Shown piece after piece: positions 2,542 to 6,190 of a DNA stretch of 6,498 nt. The stretch covers positions 1 through 6,498 of the forward strand of contig CAMWMM010000294.1 in NCBI GenBank assembly GCA_947175285.1, in the 5' to 3' direction. The notes beneath the pieces were generated by a model. It was not told the DNA's origin, made no database searches, and worked only from the letters and a program-made list of their open reading frames with translations. How positions within the stretch are numbered: the stretch's first letter is position 1; each line of letters opens with the position of its first letter. The position numbers were made by a program, and so were the translations under genes. The DNA comes from an uncultured Lachnospiraceae bacterium (GTDB lineage: Bacteria; Bacillota_A; Clostridia; Lachnospirales; Lachnospiraceae).

Positions 2542-3243
2542 TTAGAATGATTCCTGCAAAAAACTACAATATGTCTGCACAAACTCACCGTACTTCCGCT
2601 TTGCCAGATAAATCTGCTCCCCGTTACTGATACGGATGCTGGTACTGTCATATCCCCTGACTTCCGCTAATGATACAAGATAACTGCGATGGCAGCGATA
2701 GAATCCCTCTCCCAGTCGTTTCTCCAGTTCTTCCATCTTCTCGTAGAATTCAAGTTTTTCCTGTCTCGTATGCAAAATGACTTTTCTGCCGTCACTTTCC
2801 GCATACAAAATCTCTGACAGGTTCAGTCTGCGATAACCATCCGACACCTTTACCAACATATATCTTTGCCTGTTCTTTGCTTTTTCCACTTCCGCAATGG
2901 CTCTTTCCATAACCGAAAGCAGCTTCTCTTTTTCTACGGGCTTTAACAGATAATGAAAGGCGCCTACATCAAATGCCTGAAATACCTGTTCTTTTATGCC
3001 TGTCACAAAGATAAGCAGCATATCGGAAAGTTCCCGCAGCTTTTTTGCTGTCTCCATGCCGTCCATGCCATCCATAGCAACATCAAGCAGTACGATATCC
3101 GGCATATACTGCCCTCCTACCGTCTCCAATAACTCCCGTCCGGAGGCAAACTCACGTATCGTCATTTCCGGAAATGCGGATTGTAAGATAGTGTGTATGC
3201 CTTCTCTGATTCTGCTCTCATCATCACAGATTGCAATATTCAT
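2542..3243 (-). CDS. LytTR-family response regulator (AgrA/LytR type)
   Basis: Cytoplasmic two-component regulator. Numbered from the ATG at 3243 (233 residues), the receiver domain spans about 1-118, with the acidic pair Asp7-Asp8, phospho-acceptor Asp54 in VLLDVAMDG, Thr81 and Lys101 in LLKP. The LytTR DNA-binding domain spans about 128-227, with characteristic stretches ILYAESDGRKV, FYRCHRSYLV and IYLAKRKYGEF. The ATG at 3243 was chosen because the receiver core MNIAICDDE begins exactly there. A longer version using TTG at 3294 adds 17 residues with no family resemblance, yet it has the better-placed ribosome site (GGAG 3306-3303, 8 bases away). For the ATG the nearest purine run, GGAAAG, is about 14 bases away. 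The GHKL kinase at 1-1205 is the likely partner. Target promoters are unknown, and no clear LytTR direct-repeat site was found in the window. Confidence 0.93.
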   Translation of the reverse strand: MNIAICDDESRIREGIHTILQSAFPEMTIREFASGRELLETVGGQYMPDIVLLDVAMDGMDGMETAKKLRELSDMLLIFVTGIKEQVFQAFDVGAFHYLLKPVEKEKLLSVMERAIAEVEKAKNRQRYMLVKVSDGYRRLNLSEILYAESDGRKVILHTRQEKLEFYEKMEELEKRLGEGFYRCHRSYLVSLAEVRGYDSTSIRISNGEQIYLAKRKYGEFVQTYCSFLQESF

Positions 3244-3250
3244 ATATGTC

Positions 3251-3306
3251 TTAGTAACTTTCCTTCCTGCCCCTCCATGGCTGATTACTTTCAAAATCCA
3301 TTCTCC
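3251..3306 (-). other. Alternative TTG start, its ribosome site, and a 16-codon leader frame before the regulator
   Basis: GGAG at 3306-3303 lies 8 bases before a TTG (3294) in frame with the regulator. A second frame opens with ATG at 3301 and ends with TAA at 3253-3251 after 16 codons, only 7 bases before the regulator ATG at 3243. The leader ATG is just 1 base from the GGAG, too close for efficient initiation. It is therefore probably not a real peptide gene, but translation through this stretch could couple into the regulator. Confidence 0.3.
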
Positions 3307-3413: not shown

Positions 3414-3962
3414 CTATTCTTCTGAAAAACGTGATACCTTTCTGACTCCGTCAAGTCTCTCAAAATAGGCTATAATTTGTGCCGTATCTGCATTGAGAGA
3501 AACAGCGGCTTCAAAGTTAGCCGAATCCGCCAACGGATTGTCTTCAAACTGCTCTGCCAGTTCCGGCGTCAGATATGCCTCGCTGAATTCTTTCCACGCA
3601 GTATCGCCATCCACATACCGCCATGAGGAAATTCCTTCCATCTGCCCTAACTCGCTCTCAATCCGGGAAAGCTGCTCACTCGTAATATCCGGTTCAAAAA
3701 AGATACTAAAATGTGTGTTCATATAAACGGCATGAGCCGTTATACCGGTACAGGCTAAAATGAGCGCCAAACATGCCGCCGGTAATACTTTTGCATACCG
3801 CAGTCTGTAACTTACCTTTCTTTCGGATTTTTCTTTCTGCCTCATTAACTCCTGTCTCATCTGTTCCGGCAGCGCAGCGCTTTTGACAGCCTCTTTCCAT
3901 GTACCGTTTTCCAGTTTATCCTCCACATTAATATTCCCTTTTATTCCTTTTTCCATATACAT
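3414..3962 (-). CDS. Single-pass membrane protein with FtsX-like extracellular domain, putative anti-sigma factor
   Basis: A protein of 182 residues: a charged N-terminal cytoplasmic part (1-56), one membrane helix (about 58-79), and an outside domain (about 84-178). That domain reads as the extracellular domain of FtsX: FFEPDITSEQLSRIESEL at its start, a central stretch with the characteristic DNPLADS (141-147), and LDGVRKVSRF at the end. In FtsX this domain binds or activates peptidoglycan hydrolases. Here the FtsX permease half and its other membrane helices are absent, and no remnant of them follows the stop codon. It begins 18 bases after the ECF sigma gene with a strong ribosome site (AAAGGAGC), the usual place for an anti-sigma factor. 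The cytoplasmic part has no zinc-type HxxxCxxC motif, so sigma binding is inferred from context. ATG at 3956 is an alternative start. Confidence 0.8.
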   Translation of the reverse strand: MYMEKGIKGNINVEDKLENGTWKEAVKSAALPEQMRQELMRQKEKSERKVSYRLRYAKVLPAACLALILACTGITAHAVYMNTHFSIFFEPDITSEQLSRIESELGQMEGISSWRYVDGDTAWKEFSEAYLTPELAEQFEDNPLADSANFEAAVSLNADTAQIIAYFERLDGVRKVSRFSEE

Positions 3963-3980
3963 TTTGCTCCTTTCCTAATT

Positions 3981-4451
3981 TTAATGTTCCTGCAGTTTTT
4001 TCTTCAGTCCTGCCTTTGCCCGCTGCATTCGCTTTTTTACCGCATTCTCTGAAATGGCAAGTATATCCGCAATCTCTTTTAGCGAATATCCCTCTACATA
4101 ATGCAGTAGCAGCACAATCCTCCATCTTGGCGGAAGCTGTATGATTTCCTGTAAAAGCTGTCTGTCATCCGTATCCACTGCCTCTATTTCCAGTTCATCT
4201 ATCTGTATGTACTGATGTCTGAACCGGAAACGCAGCATATCTTTACAAAGATTGATTGTGACACGCAGCAGCCATGCTTTCTCATGCTCGCTGTCATGAA
4301 ATTCGGGCATCTTCTGCAAGACCTTTAACATCACTTCCTGCAGGACGTCCTGTACATCCTGCGGATTTCCTAATATCATGATGCCTGTTCGATAGAGCAA
4401 ATCGCCATATAAATTTATGATATTTTCTATTCTGGTATCATCCGGCATCAT
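3981..4451 (-). CDS. ECF-type RNA polymerase sigma factor
   Basis: A protein of 156 residues with the two-domain layout of extracytoplasmic-function sigma factors. Region 2 covers about 12-75, including DVQDVLQEVMLKV and the -10 recognising stretch AWLLRVTINLCKDMLR. After a short linker (76-98), region 4 covers about 100-153, with LPPRWRIVLLLHYVEGYS and the helix-turn-helix LKEIADILAISENAVKKRM that reads the -35 element. Length is normal for the family. The start has a good ribosome site (GGAGA at 4462-4458, 6 bases before ATG 4451); the adjacent ATG at 4448 is equally possible. It is followed by the FtsX-domain membrane protein, presumably its regulator. A TGAAAC-N17-GGTA element upstream suggests autoregulation. 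The subgroup and regulon cannot be assigned from the sequence alone. Confidence 0.93.
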   Translation of the reverse strand: MMPDDTRIENIINLYGDLLYRTGIMILGNPQDVQDVLQEVMLKVLQKMPEFHDSEHEKAWLLRVTINLCKDMLRFRFRHQYIQIDELEIEAVDTDDRQLLQEIIQLPPRWRIVLLLHYVEGYSLKEIADILAISENAVKKRMQRAKAGLKKKLQEH

Positions 4452-4500: not shown

Positions 4501-4527
4501 TACCTGTTCTACTTTATACACGTTTCA
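4501..4527 (-). promoter_or_regulatory. Candidate ECF-type promoter of the sigma/anti-sigma operon
   Basis: On the minus strand TGAAAC (4527-4522) is followed after 17 bases by GGTA (4504-4501). Bacillus ECF sigma factors recognise a TGAAAC-like -35 and a CGTA or CGTC -10 at 16-17 bases, so the -35 is perfect and the -10 is one base off. The position, some 50 bases before the sigma start, is right for autoregulation. The -35 lies directly at the end of the U-run of the preceding terminator. A clear sigma-A promoter was not seen in this gap. Confidence 0.5.
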
Positions 4528-4533
4528 AAAATA

Positions 4534-4557
4534 AAAAAGGTGCCGCCGCACCTTTTT
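4534..4557 (-). terminator. Rho-independent terminator of the FMN dehydrogenase gene
   Basis: A perfect 10-base stem (AAAAAGGTGC paired with GCACCTTTTT) has a 4-base loop and begins 8 bases after the dehydrogenase stop. On the minus strand GCACC is followed by TTTTTTATTTTT, a typical U-run. The structure is near symmetrical, but the plus strand has no gene ending here, so it serves the minus-strand dehydrogenase. Confidence 0.9.
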
Positions 4558-5704: not shown

Positions 5705-6190
5705 ATGCCTTTTGCCAACATGTCATTTCCTAGCATACCTGATGCACAGGCAATCATTCGCGGCAGCCAATTATATCCTGACTTATATGGTGTTGTCTTT
5801 TTCTGTCAAATGCCTTGCGGCGTCTTTATCAATGCACAGTTTCACGGACTGCCGTCTGTCTCGGAAACAAATGCCAAAATAAACCGTTTTCTGGGATTTC
5901 ATATTCATGAATTCGGAGACTGTACACAAAACGCAGACTCTGAGTTTGACCGTACAGGAAACCACTACAATCCTGACAATTTTTCCCATCCCAACCATCG
6001 CGGCGACCTTCCGCCCATTCTAAACTGCGGCGGTTATGCGTGGCAGTCTTTTCTGACAGACGCTTTCTCTGTTCCGGAAGTCATCGGACGAAGCATCATC
6101 GTACACGCAATGCCTGATGATTTTATGACGCAGCCATCCGGCAACAGCGGCACAAAAATTGCCTGCGGCATCATACGGGCTGACGGCTAA
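5705..6190 (+). CDS. Cu/Zn superoxide dismutase family protein, no signal peptide
   Basis: A 161-residue protein that should convert superoxide to oxygen and hydrogen peroxide at a copper/zinc site. Every metal ligand can be placed by comparison with human SOD1: copper His66 and His68 in GFHIHEFGDC, bridging His87 in GNHYNP, zinc His95 and His98 plus Asp101 in HPNHRGD, and copper His134 in IIVHAMPDDF. The disulfide cysteines are Cys73 and Cys154 (IACGII). The zinc loop is about six residues shorter than in SOD1, and Lys151 replaces the usual electrostatic-guidance Arg of GNxGxRxACG. No signal peptide or lipobox is visible, so it is probably cytoplasmic, unlike most bacterial SodC proteins. 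The start has an excellent ribosome site (GGAGG, 5693-5697, 7 bases before ATG). It is the only plus-strand gene, and its stop overlaps that of the convergent phosphatase gene. Confidence 0.92.
   Translation: MPFANMSFPSIPDAQAIIRGSQLYPDLYGVVFFCQMPCGVFINAQFHGLPSVSETNAKINRFLGFHIHEFGDCTQNADSEFDRTGNHYNPDNFSHPNHRGDLPPILNCGGYAWQSFLTDAFSVPEVIGRSIIVHAMPDDFMTQPSGNSGTKIACGIIRADG

Follow-up and report, generated by a model that had tools for sequence, protein, structure and literature searches.

A putative anti-sigma factor with a stand-alone FtsX extracellular domain in an ECF sigma factor operon of Lachnospiraceae

We analyzed a 6,498-nucleotide stretch of DNA (the window) from an uncultured Lachnospiraceae bacterium (GCA_947175285.1, contig CAMWMM010000294.1). 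The reading that we favor, with a probability of about 0.6, is that it carries an autoregulated two-gene ECF sigma/anti-sigma operon in which the sensor of the anti-sigma factor has been replaced by the extracellular domain of FtsX, which would read a hydrolase partner. An earlier note had proposed a sigma/anti-sigma pair that senses hydrolase or division status, and the results below support this interpretation in part.

Results

A sigma factor gene followed by an FtsX-type membrane protein gene

The genes and protein segments of the pair are as follows.

3981..4451, minus strand: ECF sigma factor gene, 156 aa, with regions 2 and 4 only
3414..3962, minus strand: gene of a putative anti-sigma factor with a stand-alone FtsX extracellular domain, 182 aa
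3834..3914, minus strand: candidate cytoplasmic sigma-binding segment, residues 17-43
3726..3788, minus strand: single transmembrane helix, residues 59-79, from a structure model, with a K/R-rich cytoplasmic side
3435..3710, minus strand: FtsX extracellular domain, residues 85-176, by Pfam FtsX_ECD and fold match
3519..3608, minus strand: X-lobe (partner-binding lobe of FtsX), residues 119-148, with W123, F126, Y130, F139 and NPL at 142-144

The sigma protein contains Sigma70_r2 at residues 12-74 and Sigma70_r4_2 at 97-147 (Pfam) and scores 88.7 bits against TIGR02937 (cut-off 42.9). It has regions 2 and 4, lacks region 3 and is short (156 aa), as ECF sigma factors are.

The protein in the anti-sigma position had been described as having one membrane helix, an FtsX-type outside domain and no permease domain, and this description was confirmed. 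The permease domain PF02687 was absent from the 182-aa protein at E<=1, and its helix count is one, as compared to four in FtsX. Its gene does not adjoin ftsE, the neighbors being the sigma gene and a LytTR regulator gene. The predicted fold could have failed to match that of FtsX; both Pfam FtsX_ECD and a structure match supported it. The earlier note had also guessed that databases name such proteins FtsX, and NCBI does label several relatives "permease-like cell division protein FtsX", which we regard as an annotation error.

Linkage to one sigma lineage

We read 38 distinct loci with the stand-alone domain (L001-L004, L014-L018, L060-L083 and L085-L089). In 37 of them, the gene immediately upstream, in the same orientation, is the sigma gene, and 3 to 231 bases separate the profile matches; in the sole exception, L075, the contig ends at the sigma position. 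The homologues are thus linked to sigma genes in every testable locus, and the proposal passed a check that missing linkage would have failed. No sigma gene was found near FtsX itself in 28 FtsX loci with flanks of about 1.5 kb.

The stand-alone gene is present in 44 of 77 genomes of one genus and in 6 of 37 of another. When the 77 genomes of the first genus were scanned with the sigma alignment A6, 42 gave at least 244 bits and the others at most 203 bits. The orthologous sigma factor was found in 42 of the 44 genomes with the FtsX-domain gene and in none of the 33 without it. The gap in score is wide, but the test is not independent, since A6 comprises the window and 19 of these loci and the threshold was chosen with the gap in view. 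In the two genomes without a sigma match (G827 and G849), the FtsX-domain gene lies at a contig edge.

A protein search with alignment A2 gave 733 proteins at E<=1e-10. At least 6 of 397 genomes of the family of G004 carry the stand-alone type (at least 98 bits, open frame below 235 aa), and the other listed matches among these genomes score at most 82 bits and nearly all have frames of FtsX length. In 391 genomes of the class, the matches at E<=1e-23 were two already known stand-alone proteins and one full-length FtsX.

These data bear on the view that the protein is a decayed FtsX paralogue or pseudogene that follows the sigma gene by chance, which we consider highly improbable. The FtsX annotation of several relatives by NCBI would fit such an origin. 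However, a scan of 18 genomes with PF18075 detected a separate full-length FtsX in 17, all but G064, and the relatives among the matches listed (120 of 733) are 156-255 aa long and have no permease domain among their Pfam entries. A misannotated or decayed FtsX is also contradicted by the sigma linkage in every testable locus, by the co-occurrence and by the N-terminus, which resembles that of the sister proteins described below.

Two unusual arrangements were seen. P0016, a protein from a metagenome contig, has sigma region 2, a membrane helix and the FtsX domain fused in a 229-aa frame, which reflects either a deletion between both genes or an assembly error. In the genome with L076 (G818:C12), the pair occurs twice; at L076, the second copy, the sigma match is shortened at its 5' end and the promoter motif is missing.

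A conserved predicted promoter and the search for further targets

Two elements were recognized upstream of the sigma gene.

4516..4544, minus strand: ECF-type promoter GGCACC-N16-CGTGTAT, predicted from sequence only (-35 at 4539-4544, -10 at 4516-4522)
4534..4557, minus strand: hairpin resembling a terminator, which follows the upstream FMN-dehydrogenase gene and overlaps the -35 element with its 3' arm

Of 38 operons (the window plus 37 loci), 32 carry the motif [GA][TGA][CA]AC[CTA]-N16-CGT[GA]TA ahead of the sigma gene, 30 of them in a stricter form. With spacers of 10 to 23 other than 16, none of the 38 operons has it, and 300 shuffles gave a mean of 0.02 and never more than 1. Five of the six motif-less operons (L018, L071, L086, L087 and L089, but not L076) show, by reading, a near match with the same spacing. 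At the sequence level, the motif strongly supports a candidate ECF-type promoter from which the operon would be autoregulated.

Genome scans with GKCACCN16CGTRTA gave 10 matches in 9 genomes, 7 at the sigma/FtsX-domain operon. GTCACYN16CGTRTAT gave 47 matches in 77 genomes; 31 belong to this operon and 6 immediately precede a sister sigma gene, and the remaining 10, located elsewhere, compare with 16 for the reversed control pattern. With one mismatch allowed, 8 genomes gave 61 matches (8 at the operon) vs. 102 control matches. A wider regulon was therefore rejected for this promoter type, as no excess of sites was found in these scans beyond the own operon and the sister-sigma promoters; one that relies on another -35 element is possible.

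The cytoplasmic segment and the sister sigma loci

The family motif I-T-M-P-x-x-L/M-x-x-x-L lies at residues 29-39 of the anti-sigma protein and reads AALPEQMRQEL in the window; P32 is conserved in 87 of 89 family rows and L39 in 78. When both genes were modeled as one tethered chain with AlphaFold2, residues 8-27 reached a pLDDT of about 70, as compared to about 38-52 for the protein alone. In the same model, which has a pTM of 0.36 and comes with no interface error, residues 28-37 dropped to 43. No known anti-sigma Pfam family was recognized in the window protein. The motif Hx3Cx2C of zinc class I anti-sigma factors (excerpts of PMC7406223) is absent, since residues 1-58 contain neither His nor Cys. 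In Pfam, DUF4179 was absent from the matches of the window protein at E<=1; 8 of 89 relatives matched it at E<=1 (best 0.026). As judged by these comparisons, the window protein is outside the FtsX, zinc class I and DUF4179 families.

We also read 29 loci whose sigma factors rank next in similarity (151-203 bits). They are not a random sample: six were picked for the promoter motif, which was not detected in the remaining 23. In 27 of the 29, contig and sequence permitting, the next gene encodes a short segment like that of L196 (LKNAVEAIEIRETMQQEI), a hydrophobic helix and an outside domain. Five of these sister proteins were scanned, with no FtsX match and no Pfam family covering most of the outside part at E<=0.1. 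With hhalign, 64 N-terminal columns of the FtsX-domain family matched 26 sister proteins with 96.8% probability, none of 100 column shuffles reached this score, and the reversed profile gave 0.2% (the probabilities are those of single pairs). The comparison is not very specific because the sister profile also matches DUF4179 N-termini with 92% probability. The homology of the N-termini suggests that the partner proteins of one sigma lineage combine a shared cytoplasmic module with outside domains that can be exchanged, and the FtsX domain appears to be one of these.

Two further features of the sister loci were seen. In L196-L201, the sister ECF sigma gene is preceded by the same promoter type, and the protein in the anti-sigma position has a different outside domain; cross-talk with the FtsX-domain system is possible. 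In L219, L221, L223, L226 and others, a PVRA stretch common to sister sigma-linked proteins follows the helix.

A different role was considered, in which the protein is no anti-sigma factor: its expression would depend on the sigma factor, which would be controlled otherwise, and as a decoy anchored in the membrane it would titrate or activate the hydrolase with its FtsX domain. The predicted promoters agree with this role insofar as they show no excess beyond the own operon and the sister-sigma promoters, so that the main product may be the protein with the FtsX domain. We find this role improbable: a pure decoy would not need a conserved cytoplasmic motif homologous to that of other sigma-linked membrane proteins, and the FtsX-domain gene co-occurs with one sigma lineage.

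The X-lobe and a candidate partner

The X-lobe of FtsX binds a coiled-coil partner and is missing from other type VII ABC proteins. Lobe residues named are F152, F158, L162, L165 and the mobile W155 in E. coli FtsX, where a charge substitution of F152 impairs EnvC binding, and W123, F126 and N131 in pneumococcus (excerpts of PMC7668044 and PMC6355983). M. tuberculosis FtsX has a Phe cluster (excerpt of PMC10694151).

In our alignment with chain 8ymc_C, whose residues were assigned by spacing, F126 and F139 of the window protein fall on F152 and L165. A122, W123, F126, Y130, F139 and NPL are common to the stand-alone domain and the host FtsX in 17 same-genome pairs, with the exchanges that F126 is Y in one FtsX and Y130 is F in one stand-alone protein. 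Identity is 50% in the X-lobe vs. 24% in the rest of the domain and is higher in the lobe in all 17 pairs (the FtsX proteins of G326 and G357 being partly aligned). Where the rest of the domain is 20-30% identical, the stand-alone domains match FtsX at 48.1% in the lobe; FtsX-FtsX pairs of equal divergence have 48.5% in the lobe, although these are only 7 pairs and the FtsX sample (24 loci, L019-L042) leans towards similarity because it consists of the best-scoring FtsX matches. Extra conservation of the lobe was thus rejected, as FtsX-FtsX pairs of equal divergence keep it equally well, and our claim is reduced to a preserved constraint, which could be one of fold.

In G001-G004, the gene after ftsE-ftsX encodes a long protein with a coiled coil that ends in M23 (4 of 4 genomes, by reading). 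One such protein matched CC_PcsB (E=2.1e-08) and Peptidase_M23 (E=2.5e-10) in Pfam. This protein is the natural candidate ligand of the stand-alone domain, which, because it has these residues in common with FtsX, may bind a coiled-coil hydrolase partner through its X-lobe.

Neighboring genes

Other genes of the window are the following.

3-1205: apparent histidine kinase, by reading only
1223-2410: D-alanyl-D-alanine carboxypeptidase-like gene (Peptidase_S11)
2542-3294: LytTR response regulator, beside the sigma/anti-sigma pair
5705-6190: 161-aa protein, by reading similar to a Cu-Zn superoxide dismutase

A gene similar to the last of these adjoins the locus in L001 and L004. In the same two loci, a BceRSAB-like module of an OmpR-type regulator, a histidine kinase, an ABC ATPase and a 640-aa FtsX-fold permease directly follows the anti-sigma gene (L001:3464-8050, genes assigned by Pfam; L004:6563-11182), and in L003 a comparable regulator-kinase pair lies 4 kb further along. 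The window lacks this block, and the leader of its LytTR gene is 90-92% identical to those in L001 and L004, which places the gain or loss of the block between the anti-sigma and LytTR genes.

Because the operon runs into such a module in L001 and L004 (2 of the first 9 loci), with the regulator-kinase pair of L003 nearby, the signal could be an antibiotic. The protein would then be an anti-sigma factor whose FtsX-type domain senses a cell-wall antibiotic, the state of lipid II or a membrane insult, with the hydrophobic X-lobe cavity as the ligand pocket. Detergents occupy the helical lobe of pneumococcal FtsX at W123 and F126 (excerpt of PMC6355983). We consider such a signal unlikely, although worth keeping in mind. 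In 28 of the 35 loci with a visible next ORF, that ORF points the other way (by ORF calls only), so that no Bce cargo follows; the window has no such module, and the X-lobe residues correspond to a protein-binding surface.

Discussion

A sigma/anti-sigma pair that reads a hydrolase partner would work as follows. The N-terminal helical segment of the anti-sigma factor would tether the sigma factor to the membrane. The outside domain, with the same aromatic X-lobe as the host FtsX, would bind the coiled coil of the PcsB/EnvC-like M23 protein whose gene adjoins ftsEX. A shift in the amount of this partner that is free or docked on FtsEX would alter the anti-sigma factor by proteolysis or conformational change and free the sigma factor. 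The freed sigma factor would transcribe its own operon from the GTCACC-N16-CGTRTA-type promoter, the step that the conserved motif strongly supports at the sequence level, and the additional anti-sigma factor would reset the system.

As no further target promoters stand out and the next ORF is on the opposite strand in 28 of 35 loci, the main output may be the protein with the FtsX domain itself. This leads to a speculative version, of low probability in our view, in which the operon is a self-contained homeostat. The FtsX domain of the anti-sigma factor would compete with FtsX for the coiled-coil M23 hydrolase activator, and surplus free partner would bind the domain and release the sigma factor. 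With the own operon as the only strong promoter of the sigma factor, the response would be more FtsX-domain "sponge" in the membrane. If so, sensor and output would be the same protein, and septal wall cutting would be coupled to transcription without a regulon.

A sigma regulator bearing the partner-docking domain of FtsX would allow a direct test of how the state of septal hydrolases reaches gene expression, for which a single reporter and a small number of point changes would be enough. It would also mean that this domain is able to work separately from the transporter. No report of an FtsX domain in an anti-sigma factor was found among the matches listed from open-licence PubMed Central, by titles and starts of abstracts.

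Compared to FtsX (FtsEX; PF18075 and PF02687), the window protein has no permease domain, one helix instead of four, and a sigma gene in place of ftsE. It resembles membrane ECF anti-sigma factors (classes I and II of PMC7406223, in excerpts; RsiV, RsiW, CnrY) in gene order, one-pass topology, a short N-terminal helical segment and an operon that is predicted, here from the promoter sequence, to be autoregulated; CnrY likewise has two helices (same source). It differs from them in having no zinc motif, no recognized anti-sigma Pfam family and an FtsX-derived outside domain. The -35 element of the window-type operons is GTCACC, whereas the AAC type is named typical in an excerpt of PMC8103513.

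DUF4179 proteins of the same genomes are similar in their short cytoplasmic segment, helix and outside domain, and a sigma gene accompanies them in 23 of 25 loci. Their outside domain is different, however, and the profile comparison with the FtsX-domain family is weak (40% probability over 8 columns).

SigI is not an ECF sigma factor, and the sensors of RsgI are borrowed carbohydrate-binding or enzyme domains, of other kinds than the domain described here. The receptor domains of RsiV/SigV and SigP/PbpP are likewise not known to be related to the FtsX-type domain. The RsgI anti-sigma-I factors of cellulolytic clostridia, characterized in literature excerpts as substrate-sensing anti-sigma factors, are similar in the borrowing of a sensor. 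In RsiV/SigV and SigP/PbpP, according to such excerpts, the anti-sigma factor, or else its partner, serves as the receptor of a protein or drug that acts on the cell wall, whereas the candidate ligand of the window system is the hydrolase partner of the cell's own division.
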